Position numbers and translations under genes: made by a program | Notes under the pieces: generated by a model | Seen by the model: only the letters and a program-made list of their open reading frames with translations | Told to the model about the DNA's origin: nothing | Database searches by the model: none | In this document: one piece after another, positions 17,011 to 20,270 of the stretch | Numbering within the stretch: the first letter of the stretch is position 1 | Layout: each line of letters begins with the position of its first letter | DNA from: a virus | Strand: one strand, 5' to 3' | DNA: 20,270 nucleotides | IMG/VR virus record: IMGVR_UViG_3300042401_000109 | Location: 1-20,270 of that record

Positions 17011-18222
17011 TTAGCCCCAGATACGGCAGGCCATTTGTGGACGAATTGTGCTGAAACCGTACAAAACGTCAATACGGCAAGGCAAACGATCGTTGTTGAT
17101 GTCGTACTGGCGAACCACACGCAAGCTGATACCGTTATGAACGGCACGGGCAGCCATGTCAACGCCTTGGGGCAACAACAAGTCAGCGGTCGCAAATGTG
17201 ATCGCATCTTTGTGGTAAACCAAGTTCTGTGCGTATTGAGTGGATGCAGCACCCACAAAAGTTACAACACCACCAGTTGCAGGCAATGCGCTCATAGTAG
17301 CCAAAGCATGGCTGGCAGAGTACATAGGAGCAACGGTCACAGTCCAAGTGCCTGACGAAGCAGTAGCAGTAGTCAAAGCCACAAATTGGAACAAAGAGCC
17401 TGTGGACTCACGGGTCTGTGGGTTAACAGCATTGCAACCGCTGATAGTGAACACGTCACCAGCATTGATTGTGGTTGAAACAGAACCTTGCTCCAACAGA
17501 ATGGTTGCTGAACCTTCGGAAGTAACGCCGGGGGTCTTAACCAATGTAGAAGCAGTAGCGCTGCGTGAACCAGTTGTGTGTTGCTTGATAGACTGAGACA
17601 TGTTGACTTCTTCAAAGCCCAACACGCCCATACCCATCATGCCGTTCTTGAATTGCTTGCTGATAGTGTCTGTTGGGTTAAACAGACCTTTCATGCCTTC
17701 AACCAAGCCAGCGTTAGCAGCAGGGTTTACGGTAGCGTAACGTGGAGACATCACAGCAGCGTTTTCGTTCAGCTTCTGTTGGGCTTGCAACAAGACCAAA
17801 GAAGTGGCGGGGGTTGTGCCAGGTGTACCAACAGTGTTACCAATGGTGCGGTATGCGTTGGCAACGTCAGCATCAATAGAAGATGCCAACTGGCTGATAC
17901 GAGGCTTAAGCACACGTTCAGCAAAGTCGTCCAACTGCATTGTCAATTCAGCAGATGTGAAGTTGACACCAATGTGCTTTTGTGAAGCAACAGTCAATGT
18001 GGTGAACTGTTCGTTGTCGTCTTGCACTTGCAAGGCAGCACCGTCAGTTACCAAAGCGCGGTCGGGTAAGCGAATACGCAGTGTAGAACCGATTTTAGCG
18101 CCTTCAACAGCAAAGCTGTCGTCGTACTGGCGGTTCACGTTACGGGTAATTACAAGGTTGTTCTCAAGAATTTCGAGAGCCTTGCGTGTGATCATGTCGA
18201 TCGTCAGAATACTATTAGACAT
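17011..18222 (-). CDS. P22 gp5-like major coat protein
   Basis: This 403-aa product starts NSILTIDMITRKALEILENN and continues LVITRNVNRQYDDSFAVEGA, KIGSTLRIRLP. This is the conserved N-arm and E-loop region of P22-type coat proteins. DFAERVLKPRISQLASSIDA and the final RVVRQYDINNDRLPCRIDVL, YGFSTIRPQMACRIWG are further family hallmarks. The middle (about 225-320) is Thr/Ser/Ala-rich and beta-prone, likely the inserted I-domain. P22 coat has 430 aa, a similar length. The protein assembles on the scaffold encoded just upstream. AGGA stands seven bases before ATG 18222. It has only 20 bases between it and the scaffold gene, then hairpins downstream. Confidence 0.92.
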   Translation of the reverse strand: MSNSILTIDMITRKALEILENNLVITRNVNRQYDDSFAVEGAKIGSTLRIRLPDRALVTDGAALQVQDDNEQFTTLTVASQKHIGVNFTSAELTMQLDDFAERVLKPRISQLASSIDADVANAYRTIGNTVGTPGTTPATSLVLLQAQQKLNENAAVMSPRYATVNPAANAGLVEGMKGLFNPTDTISKQFKNGMMGMGVLGFEEVNMSQSIKQHTTGSRSATASTLVKTPGVTSEGSATILLEQGSVSTTINAGDVFTISGCNAVNPQTRESTGSLFQFVALTTATASSGTWTVTVAPMYSASHALATMSALPATGGVVTFVGAASTQYAQNLVYHKDAITFATADLLLPQGVDMAARAVHNGISLRVVRQYDINNDRLPCRIDVLYGFSTIRPQMACRIWG

Positions 18223-18242: not shown

Positions 18243-19016
18243 TTAACGGTTGCGTTGCGCTTCATACTTACGAATCTGGCGGTTGCGTTCGGCTTCGATC
18301 CAATCCGAGGTAGACATGGTTTTGATTGACCTTGGGTCAGTCGTGTCATGGCTCGGGCTTCCCGAAGACCGCGCAGTCACCGGACTAATAGGTGTTGGCG
18401 CAGAAGTTGTTTTCTTCACCGGAGGATTGTCAGACAATCTGACTTCAATCTTTCCGATTTCCCTTGCCTGCAAAATAGGCGACAAACGGGCAATGCGTTC
18501 AGCCTCCTTGGGGTTTGAACCTAGCCAATAAGCTAGATCAGGCCCAAGATCAGAATACTGAATTGTTTCAGCCATTACGTCGGTGATTCGCAGCTTGGGG
18601 TTGTACACGACATCTTCAAAATCGTCGTATTTATCCCGAGCCTTTTCTTCACGTTCGCTGTAAGCCTCTACAATTTCAGCTTGTTCCTTTTGGCGATCCC
18701 GTTGAGCAAGCAATTCTTCGGCTTTTCTGAGGGCCAGTGCTTCCGCATAGGCATCAGTGCTTTCAAAATTGTCAATCGACGGCATTTCCTTGGGAGCAAC
18801 TGGCACGGTTTGCCGTGCGGCTTGTTCACGTTCCCACTTGCGCTGTTCTCTTGCGAGGCGCTTGCCAATAGCAGCGTCAAGTTCCTCTTGCGAGAATGTC
18901 TTGGCAGGCTGGTTCTCAGCTACTTCCGGCGAAGATACTGCAACTTCAGGTGTGGCCGTCACATCCTTGGTTGGCGCGGAGTCTACTTCCGCTAGGTTTT
19001 GGACTTCTTCAGTCAT
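18243..19016 (-). CDS. P22 gp8-like scaffolding protein
   Basis: This 257-aa product is acidic at the N terminus (MTEEVQNLAEVDSAPTKDVT). It then has FSQEELDAAIGKRLAREQRK, a charged helical middle (about 95-150) and YNPKLRITDVMAETIQYSDL, GPDLAYWLGSNPKEAERIA. It ends in a basic helix (SDWIEAERNRQIRKYEAQRN), as expected for the coat-binding helix-turn-helix of P22-like scaffolds. It directs coat assembly and leaves the head before DNA packaging. P22 gp8 has 303 aa, so this one is shorter. Position just upstream of coat fits exactly. AAGGA precedes ATG 19016 by eight bases but lies within an inverted repeat, a possible translational control site. Confidence 0.9.
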   Translation of the reverse strand: MTEEVQNLAEVDSAPTKDVTATPEVAVSSPEVAENQPAKTFSQEELDAAIGKRLAREQRKWEREQAARQTVPVAPKEMPSIDNFESTDAYAEALALRKAEELLAQRDRQKEQAEIVEAYSEREEKARDKYDDFEDVVYNPKLRITDVMAETIQYSDLGPDLAYWLGSNPKEAERIARLSPILQAREIGKIEVRLSDNPPVKKTTSAPTPISPVTARSSGSPSHDTTDPRSIKTMSTSDWIEAERNRQIRKYEAQRNR

Positions 19017-19062: not shown

Positions 19063-19542
19063 TTATAACATTCGGGTCACTAATCGTTGGCCAGTAGTAA
19101 GGCCAGTACCAAAAGTAATTGTCGTCGTGTTGGTTTCAGTATAGTCGTAATTAAACTCTTTGACGAGTCCATCGACAATAACCATCAAATAACCGCCAAG
19201 GCCGTATTCGGGCACGGTAAACACAGTTTGTCCGGAAGTTGCAACTATCGTAGCAGTTTGAACGCTTGGGCTGCTGTTAATCCCAGCCGCAGTCCAAATC
19301 AAATTATCTAATGAATCTTTAAGCAACCATGTGTAGCGCGAAGGGCCAAGCCATACATTTGCTTCACCGCGTGAATCCAAAATGACGGGGTTTGTGTTTG
19401 TGGTATTTCCAGTGCTATCAGTATATGTGGCCAAAGGAACTGTGGTTCCACTAGCGTATGTGAACAATTTTCCACCGACTAAAGGAACACCCGCAGCGGT
19501 AAAAAACTGTACTTTTGGTGATGGACTTAATGTGGTAGTCAT
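19063..19542 (-). CDS. Stand-alone tailspike/fibre head-binding-like protein, 159 aa
   Basis: The first 85 residues (SPKVQFFTAAGVPLVGGKLF, then TYASGTTVPLATYTDSTGNT, NPVILDSRGEANVWLGPSRY, TWLLKD) form the particle-binding domain pattern seen at the N terminus of many phage tailspikes and fibres. Instead of a receptor-binding enzyme, only about 70 further residues follow (PSVQTATIVATSGQTVFTVP ending TTGQRLVTRML), themselves a beta-structured unit like those in fibre shafts. The gene lies between scaffold and a small gene, away from the other tail genes. It may be a short adaptor to which a separate receptor-binding protein docks, or a remnant after loss of the enzyme domain. Placement and size make function uncertain. 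Confidence 0.7.
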   Translation of the reverse strand: MTTTLSPSPKVQFFTAAGVPLVGGKLFTYASGTTVPLATYTDSTGNTTNTNPVILDSRGEANVWLGPSRYTWLLKDSLDNLIWTAAGINSSPSVQTATIVATSGQTVFTVPEYGLGGYLMVIVDGLVKEFNYDYTETNTTTITFGTGLTTGQRLVTRML

Positions 19543-19557
19543 ACTATTTTTAAACCT

Positions 19558-19782
19558 TTAATCTTTATCAGTCACAATAACTGCAACGTTATCAACCCAA
19601 ATCAACCTACCTTTACAGGCTATGTTCCATTTCTTTTCACCATATTCGTGAGTACACTCGGTAAAAGTTTCGCCAATTATTCTTACATCAGAAGCAAGAT
19701 GTTCAGCCCCATTTTCAAAAATACGCCAGACTAAATTAGATCCATTGTGTTTTGTATTAAATCGGACATGGTATTTATTCAA
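19558..19782 (-). CDS. Small conserved protein, 74 aa
   Basis: The product begins MNKYHVRFNTKHNGSNLVWR and continues IFENGAEHLASDVRIIGETF. After an ECTHEYGEKKWNIACKG segment it ends VDNVAVIVTDKD. The KYHVRFNTKHxxxxLVWRxxExGxEHL...KWNxxCxG pattern is one I associate with small proteins of environmental phages, including cyanophages, with unknown function. It seems a compact beta-rich cytoplasmic protein. Its ATG lies inside the end of the nucleotidyltransferase gene (eight-base overlap), so it is translated with it; the pair may form a functional unit. Confidence 0.75.
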   Translation of the reverse strand: MNKYHVRFNTKHNGSNLVWRIFENGAEHLASDVRIIGETFTECTHEYGEKKWNIACKGRLIWVDNVAVIVTDKD

Positions 19783-20270
19783 TGCCCATCTCTTTTCTTA
19801 TTTTTGTTGCTGAAATAGAGTGTGTGGCATCGTCAAAAGATTCTTGTTCAATTTTATACCCAACATCTCTGCCGTATGTAATGTTTACAACATTAGGAAC
19901 AAGCTGAATTTCATATTGGCCTTGGTACAAAGGGTCAAGATCACGCTTGATAAAGTCTTTTACCTGATTGGCAGCAAACGGGTTTGAGCCGTTCCAACCC
20001 TGACAATCTCTAATCTGAATAACTACTTGACCAGTTTTTGCCAATGCTCTCTCAAACAGTTTACGATGGCCTTCATGCCAAGGTTGCCATCTGCCAAGCA
20101 TCTGAACAGTTTCTTTCTGCCAATCAAAGACGGGGCGTGGGCGGTCATCCAAAATGTGTGCGGCAATAAACTCACCCCACTTCTCAGCCTTTTGCTCAGT
20201 AATCCTAAAGTCATACTGTTCTGGCGCAACAAACACCTTGTTGGTGTCCTCAAAACGGCCTTGATTGATA
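19775..20270 (-). CDS. Nucleotidyltransferase-superfamily protein, 5' end beyond window (possible APS-kinase-like fusion)
   Basis: The frame is open to the right edge (residues INQGRFEDTNK precede a GTG at 20236 that could otherwise serve as start), so the gene is partial. The C-terminal domain has MLGRWQPWHEGHRKLFERAL with the HxGH motif of cytidylyl/adenylyltransferases, and ISATKIRKEMGI, the matching second nucleotide-binding motif. The upstream stretch RFEDTNKVFVAPEQYDFRIT is like the end of an adenylylsulfate-kinase-type P-loop domain found in phage fusions, from memory, but the kinase core itself is outside the window. It likely transfers a nucleotide to an unknown substrate in the cytoplasm. 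Substrate and kinase fusion are inference. Confidence 0.75.
   Translation of the reverse strand, partial: INQGRFEDTNKVFVAPEQYDFRITEQKAEKWGEFIAAHILDDRPRPVFDWQKETVQMLGRWQPWHEGHRKLFERALAKTGQVVIQIRDCQGWNGSNPFAANQVKDFIKRDLDPLYQGQYEIQLVPNVVNITYGRDVGYKIEQESFDDATHSISATKIRKEMGIE

Follow-up and report, generated by a model that had tools for sequence, protein, structure and literature searches.

At the end of a 20,270-base viral contig, a gene on the minus strand encodes the C-terminal part of a fusion between an APS-kinase-type P-loop domain and a compact HxGH nucleotidyltransferase (NTase). We propose, with a probability of roughly 40%, that the complete protein is a two-domain nucleotide-activating enzyme that makes an adenylyl-X and then phosphorylates it at the 3′ position, X being most likely sulfate and the product PAPS for sulfation. 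We favor this reading because the protein joins a putative short-acceptor adenylyltransferase to an APS-kinase-like kinase and frequently has sulfotransferase partners. In this pathway, the C-terminal NTase would use ATP to adenylylate a small anionic acceptor X, and the N-terminal APS-kinase-like domain would phosphorylate the 3′-OH of the resulting adenylyl-X. With sulfate as X, the protein would be a compact PAPS synthetase in which an NMNAT-like domain replaces ATP sulfurylase. The 3′-phosphorylated donor would then feed a phage sulfotransferase acting on a surface glycan or a virion protein, so that the virion or the host surface would be sulfated.

The window, the stretch of DNA that was analyzed, is the whole virus record of 20,270 bases, which may itself be a fragment. 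Its features at this end are:

19775..20269, minus strand: 3′ part of the kinase-NTase fusion gene, 164 aa (ORF list; full-length relatives, e.g., L006:4707-5492)
20138..20269, minus strand: end of the APS-kinase-like domain (INQGRFEDTNKVFVAPEQYDFRI...) (alignment with full-length relatives; the L006 kinase model superposes on APS kinases)
19778..20137, minus strand: compact NTase domain with GRWQPWHEGH, NPF, YGRDVGY, and ISATKIR (NTase alignment; profile matching archaeal-type NMNATs; PPAT/NMNAT fold class)
19558..19782, minus strand: 74-aa conserved partner gene with a TTG start (ORF list; IMG/VR relatives; linkage counts)
19063..19542, minus strand: 159-aa protein, probably structural or tail-fibre-like (PHROG matches; downstream of the cassette)
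18243..19016, minus strand: head scaffolding protein (PHROG 8865, E 7e-34)
17011..18222, minus strand: P22-like major coat protein (PF11651, E 5e-38)

The 164-aa ORF is open on its 5′ side, where the record ends, and the 5′ half of the fusion gene, including the P-loop, lies beyond the contig end. The initial annotation had taken HEGH and ISATKIR as marks of a nucleotidyltransferase, and both motifs are indeed present in this ORF within the NTase domain. The 74-aa ORF overlaps the NTase stop by 8 nt. The 159-aa protein matched PHROG 26190, a family of unknown function (E 3e-13), and PHROG 25416, a virion structural protein (E 8e-4). Between positions 18100 and 20270, promoter-like sites (5, versus 2.9 in shuffled sequences) were not clearly above the shuffled level and terminator-like sites (1, versus 2.5) were not above it.

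Relatives of the 164-aa ORF were encoded by at least 583 of 600 candidate IMG/VR stretches, and 80 loci were kept (L002-L081; 81-98% identity, on contigs of 4 to 525 kb). The full protein has approximately 262 aa in these relatives (mostly 260 to 290 aa) and consists of an N-terminal APS-kinase-type P-loop domain followed by the C-terminal compact HxGH NTase. A P-loop kinase domain stood in front of the NTase in 79 of the 80 loci retrieved by the window fragment, the exception (L010) being cut by the contig edge. When loci matching the full protein were considered, the P-loop lay in the matched ORF in 135 of 141 plus-strand loci and the remaining 6 began at a contig edge. Reading past position 20270 through the relatives thus bears out the earlier suggestion that the residues preceding the NTase are the end of an adenylylsulfate-kinase-like domain. 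Some kinases (e.g., L042:4653-5492, L045, and L097) carry an insertion of approximately 15 to 25 residues between the P-loop helix and N-A-D-x-x-R. The kinase and the NTase of L066:4680-5495 are separated by an in-frame stop precisely at their boundary, which may reflect either an error in sequencing or a genuine split like that seen in SAR11. Among GenBank phages we found only 5 distant relatives (33-39% identity), named "kinase" or hypothetical, and the window protein matched PHROG 10255 (E 8e-25).

Residues 4-90 of full-length L006 matched the Pfam APS_kinase family (PF01583) with 37.1 bits (cut-off 21.1), and the NCBIfam apsK equivalog TIGR00455 gave 25.9 bits, below its cut-off of 138.7. 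An AlphaFold2 model of full-length L006 had a mean pLDDT of 88 and a pTM of 0.63. For residues 1-141 of this model, the 30 best structural entries were APS kinases, PAPS synthetases, and ATP sulfurylases (the latter via their APS-kinase-like domain), with Z scores of 15.7-18.5 and gluconate kinase next at 14.6; 27 of the 30 superposed at 1.8-2.7 Å over 128-141 residues. In the kinase alignment, D38, R41, and F49 were invariant and R54 nearly so, and these positions correspond to GDN-x-R, GFS, and DR in the canonical APS kinases. In this comparison, which rests mainly on L311 and L312 (the L315 extraction was empty and the SAR11 sequences are divergent), the phage-type kinases retain the P-loop and D-x-x-R, together with the Phe of GFS and, in most cases, the Arg of DR, whereas FISP is changed to FV(A/C)P or FICP and approximately 18 residues of the lid with KGLY...FTG are missing in all 9 kinases aligned. 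We take the retained residues to be those that bind APS in APS-kinase structures.

The APS_kinase match of L006 would also fit the usual reading of viral cysC, namely an auxiliary metabolic gene that boosts assimilatory sulfate reduction in the host. Viral cysC genes have been reported in lake viromes, and passages in 3 papers assign them to sulfate assimilation or the sulfur cycle (PMC9611531, PMC11053968, PMC8066274), whereas a passage in a review gives viral cysC as "not validated" (PMC12713726). These lake-virome genes need not be the kinase-NTase fusion. The annotated neighbors of the fusion, which are sulfotransferases and glycan genes, argue against a role in assimilation. Furthermore, neither ECG[ILV]H nor ESG[ILV]H, which we take as the PAPS reductase motif, occurred in any ORF longer than 150 aa in L002-L150, the phage stretches that were fetched. 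Because no PAPS-reductase motif was found nearby in these ORFs, assimilatory sulfate reduction was rejected as the role of the fusion, and we regard the usual cysC reading as improbable here.

The NTase of full-length L006 matched PF01467 (CTP_transf_like) with 22.1 bits, above the cut-off of 21, and the window fragment alone scored just below it (20.7 bits). H21/H24 and S109/T111/R114, corresponding to the HxGH and ISxTxxR catalytic motifs, were invariant in the NTase alignment. A profile built from 21 rows was compared with PDB sequences, and the 11 best matches were all archaeal-type NMNATs, several of them mutants of one protein, including 2qjt (E 1.6e-9) and 1f9a (E 2.9e-9). Together with the match to the archaeal-type NMNAT model TIGR01527 (E 1.4e-6), this proximity would be expected if the fusion combined an NMN adenylyltransferase with a nicotinamide-riboside kinase, as in NadR, perhaps rebuilding NAD+ against NAD-depleting defences. 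However, TIGR01527 reached only 28.0 bits against its cut-off of 181.2, and MJ0541 has 43 residues between its 2 matched parts where the NTase profile has 19 positions, a segment 24 residues longer in MJ0541 (the second matched part alone is not significant). We assume that this segment of MJ0541 binds NMN, and its shortening in the phage NTase suggests, as far as the sequence goes, a small acceptor. In addition, the kinase is APS-kinase-like and no NAD gene occurred among the annotated neighbor clusters. A simple NMNAT or NadR is thus disfavored by the TIGR01527 score and the shorter segment, and we consider a NAD-related function of the fusion hardly probable.

Modeled alone, the NTase gave a pLDDT of 87 and a pTM of 0.80, and in structural comparison the PPAT and NMNAT folds tied at Z 8.9-9.7. 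The level score of PPAT would suit a CoA-synthase-like protein, that is, a phosphopantetheine adenylyltransferase joined to a 3′-kinase, which follows the same NTase-plus-3′-kinase logic. The kinase is APS-kinase-like, however, and CoaE was absent from the best 25 of 34 Pfam matches of the full protein and very weak in L083 (E 0.062), and we judge this alternative very improbable. The NTase was also rejected as a canonical ATP sulfurylase: PF01747 was absent from the best 25 of 34 Pfam matches of L006, and the NTase profile had no ATP sulfurylase match in PDB sequences at E values up to 5. The ATP sulfurylase fold was absent from the best 50 structural rows of the NTase model, an absence that excludes nothing. 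PAPSS1 rows did span both domains of the full L006 model, at 16-21 Å rmsd.

The preferred reading, PAPS synthesis for sulfation, also draws on the genes that accompany the fusion. Clustering of neighboring ORFs gave a sulfotransferase cluster whose member in L012 matched PF13469 (E 2e-18) and PF00685 (E 5e-11); L012:3892-4707 scored 67.7 bits against PF13469, over the cut-off of 27. The 3′ pattern was present in 27 of the 28 short members of this cluster, and the corresponding count for the 5′ motif (28 of 28) is circular because the 28 were chosen by that motif; both motifs are presumably PAPS-binding. Among 128 loci with 700 nt of upstream sequence (3 contigs are counted twice), the sulfotransferase was the gene directly upstream of the fusion in 27, with a 4-nt overlap in 24, and in the other 101 the direct upstream gene was not this sulfotransferase or none met the criterion (14 loci). 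In the 22 loci nearest the window, the sulfotransferase overlaps or abuts the kinase start in 19, the exceptions being the cut locus L010, and L016 and L017, which have another gene upstream. Among close loci that carry the 74-aa gene, L027 resembles L016 and L017 in having a different upstream gene, and L114 has the sulfotransferase. In L016, L024, and similar loci we observed proteins of approximately 600 aa in which a sulfotransferase domain is combined with other sequence, by eye TPR- or glycosyltransferase-like.

At the level of whole records, 30 of 50 carriers and then 22 of 46 further ones (including L141, which has the kinase only) passed the PF13469 cut-off, together 52 of 96, compared with 0 of 50 records of coat-gene relatives (all of at least 10 kb; Fisher p about 6e-13, with records related within groups and a control drawn from a different phage group). 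None of 4 records whose fetched stretch had the 74-aa gene but no kinase gene passed. Passes were infrequent among the carriers that are not close to the window (2 of 18 for L034-L051). The initial annotation had left the role of the enzyme between nucleotide or sulfur metabolism, DNA or capsid modification, and defence evasion; the sulfotransferases of the carriers now favor sulfur chemistry among these options, short of proof.

These neighborhoods also lend support to the main rival, in which the kinase and then the NTase would yield an activated sugar or polyol. There the kinase would act first on a small hydroxy compound and the NTase would then convert the product into an NDP-activated precursor used in a surface-glycan or teichoic-like modification, following the logic of HldE or RibF, and the sulfotransferases would simply belong to the same glycan cassettes. 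Genes near the fusion, with cluster names taken from one annotated representative per cluster, included an RfaE-type NTase (a 37-locus cluster), a PfkB/HldE-type kinase (16 loci), and an NAD-dependent epimerase (26 loci), as well as a GT25 glycosyltransferase, UDP-galactopyranose mutase, carbamoyltransferase, and DegT aminotransferase in few loci each. Directly upstream of the fusion we found the RfaE-type NTase in 12 loci, the GT25 glycosyltransferase and the carbamoyltransferase in 4 each, and, more rarely, the UDP-galactopyranose mutase and the DegT aminotransferase (2 each). An NTase of the PPAT/NMNAT fold class also suits this route, and fused SAR11 copies L151, L153, and L154 lie among polysaccharide genes (identified partly by Pfam in L151 and L154, by eye in L153). 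However, the kinase preserves residues matching the substrate-side motifs found in canonical APS kinases, and its best matches are APS kinases rather than sugar kinases; we consider a kinase-first route possible although unlikely. In L034, L040, L051, L123, and similar loci, a PTPS/QueD-like gene was detected by Pfam and QueE- and FolE-like genes by eye, in a region that also has RfaE-type NTase, PfkB/HldE-type kinase, and glycosyltransferase-like genes.

The 74-aa gene had been described as resembling small proteins of environmental phages, and its relatives were in fact encoded by 66 of 73 candidate IMG/VR stretches. Conservation of both this gene and the 164-aa ORF thus far exceeds what chance would give. 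Its linkage to the enzyme gene in other phages also holds: the kinase(-NTase) gene was present in the fetched stretch of 58 of the 66 loci and directly upstream of the 74-aa gene in 45 (gap of -12 to +30 nt), 33 of them with a 4-nt overlap. Two of the 8 loci without a kinase gene in the fetched stretch are at the contig start. The reverse linkage is weaker, with the 74-aa gene in the fetched stretch of 7 of the 80 closest kinase-NTase loci. Another gene of approximately 650 nt lies between the 2 genes in 7 loci, e.g., L100 and L113; this intervening gene (L100:2378-3004, L113:2387-3001) looks by eye like a GIY-YIG homing endonuclease, for which L100 gave no Pfam match, and in L131 a 2OG-Fe(II) oxygenase is found between the kinase-NTase and the 74-aa gene. 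The 74-aa protein had no match in GenBank phages and none in Pfam at E values up to 1, and its best PHROG match (E 0.58) was not significant. It probably serves the cassette as an accessory factor. In L141:2570-2998, L142, and L143, the 74-aa gene adjoins a kinase whose fetched stretch contains no NTase, and therefore this gene may belong with the kinase rather than with the NTase.

On this contig the 2 genes do lie beside head genes, as the initial annotation stated in placing them inside the structural operon, but this location does not extend to other phages: neither gene was present in any of 80 fetched stretches around relatives of the window coat gene. The scaffold gene was kept in 78 of these stretches, and the sequence upstream of it exceeds 2.5 kb in 47. 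In L231, L232, and L287, the 159-aa gene (80-86% identity) stands directly before the scaffold gene without the cassette. A search of 50 whole records of coat relatives, run without a positive control, likewise found no kinase-NTase. Since neither gene was found in the fetched stretches around coat relatives, the kinase-NTase and its 74-aa partner are probably an accessory insertion beside the head/structural genes, and the reading as a core structural gene is disfavored.

Homologues of the pair were also found in cellular genomes. At least 118 of 594 candidate GTDB stretches encode one (80 were kept), in SAR11, SAR86, and other Alpha- and Gammaproteobacteria, with 40-61% identity, and in 70 of 79 loci the match was split over 2 ORFs, kinase then NTase. 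In a tree of 32 NTase sequences, the window grouped with 18 phage sequences from IMG/VR (support 0.89), and 3 gammaproteobacterial sequences (2 of SAR86) stood next to them in a joint clade (0.995). A sulfotransferase lies 28 nt upstream of the cellular copy in L225 (PF13469, E 1e-36) and within about 3 kb of the copies in L151 (PF00685), L155 (on the opposite strand), and L157. Because the genomes of L155 and L157 have about 5 Mb and a single PF13469 match each, closeness by chance is unlikely in these 2. The other fused copies (L152, L153, L154, and L156) had no Pfam-supported sulfotransferase among the scanned neighbors, where Pfam scans covered one neighbor in L153 and 2 in L154, the rest were assessed visually, and L152 and L156 are represented by short stretches. 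One-carbon and catabolic genes (oxygenase, M24 peptidase, MTHFR-like, enoyl-CoA hydratase) surround most cellular pairs, with no sulfotransferase next to them, a context that does not speak for sulfation.

We then considered the complement of sulfur genes per genome. Among 39 genomes with the pair, Sat (PF01747) was detected in 2 and CysD in 3 (threshold E 0.001, with a single match above the family cut-off), giving 4 genomes with one or both; most of the 39 are single-cell or metagenome assemblies, in which a missing Sat or CysD may be missing sequence. A sulfotransferase exceeded its cut-off in 26 of the 39, versus 2 of 14 control genomes, and in 23 of the 35 genomes without detected Sat or CysD. 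The SAR86 genome G133 (L215), titled complete, has 2 strong sulfotransferases and neither Sat nor CysD; the kinase of the pair is the sole APS-kinase match in this genome and barely exceeds the cut-off. Seven genomes of the SAR11 lineage (G107, G112, G114, G115, G118, G129, and G135) have an additional ORF of 170-188 aa that matches APS kinase.

SAR11 sulfotransferase genes are given in a passage of PMC2217521. Among 88 Pelagibacterales genomes, the NTase was detected in 62 and a sulfotransferase in 59: 41 had both, 18 had only the sulfotransferase, 21 only the NTase, and 8 neither. There was no association between the two, as sulfotransferases occurred in 41 of 62 genomes with the NTase versus 18 of 26 without it (Fisher p = 1.0). 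Sat was present in 5 of the 88, and a replacement of the NTase by Sat in SAR11 was not borne out, as Sat occurred in only 1 of the 18 genomes with a sulfotransferase but without the NTase. The lack of association therefore means that in SAR11 either many proteins of the sulfotransferase family do not use PAPS, or there is another source of PAPS, or the pair has another function.

A more specific version of the preferred reading is that PAPS is made by a pocket-reduced NMNAT-type adenylyltransferase serving as ATP sulfurylase together with a short-lid APS kinase, and that phages use it to sulfate their own or the host surface. This version is tentative, and equally tentative is its extension to a system spread over environmental phages and streamlined ocean bacteria without a detected known ATP sulfurylase. 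Carriers range from the 20-kb P22-like contig to contigs above 300 kb. If this version is true, part of the viral cysC would be sulfation machinery and not sulfate assimilation; a common phage gene labeled "kinase", and possibly "cysC", would supply an activated donor for surface decoration; phage sulfotransferases would gain a testable pathway; and a PAPS route would be suggested for SAR86 and SAR11 cells without a detected known ATP sulfurylase. Even if X is not sulfate, this is a conserved kinase/NTase pair common to environmental phages and SAR11. Literature listings and passages gave no function assignment for the pair, and titles and abstracts yielded nothing on a PAPS synthetase in phages, an APS kinase with an NTase in phages, or an APS kinase in SAR11.

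Several known systems resemble the fusion in part. PHROG 10255, the phage family matched by the window protein, is described only as "kinase". Phage sulfotransferases (PF13469) are present in many of the same records as the fusion; their role is called unclear in a passage of PMC10580990, which mentions no donor-making enzyme beside them. The APS kinase CysC (PF01583) shares the P-loop, the D-x-x-R, GFS-like, and DR motifs, and the fold; the fusion kinase differs from it in lacking the lid segment, in its changed FISP, in being fused to or adjoining an NTase, and in scoring far below the TIGR00455 cut-off. With the archaeal-type NMN adenylyltransferase NadM, which provides the best PDB sequence matches, the phage NTase has GRxQPxHxGH, NPF, and IS-x-T-x-IR in common, but its acceptor-side segment is 24 residues shorter than that of MJ0541 and it is fused to an APS-kinase-like domain. 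A parallel in domain content is offered by PAPSS1/2 and the bacterial ATP sulfurylase-APS kinase fusions, which likewise combine an APS-kinase-type domain and an adenylyltransferase domain in one chain. In human PAPSS1 the APS kinase domain comes first, as the kinase does in the phage protein, and the 1x6v row spans both domains of the L006 model, at 20 Å rmsd. Unlike in PAPSS1/2, the phage NTase has about 120 aa, is NMNAT-like, and shows no ATP-sulfurylase match, and the lid of the phage kinase is shortened.
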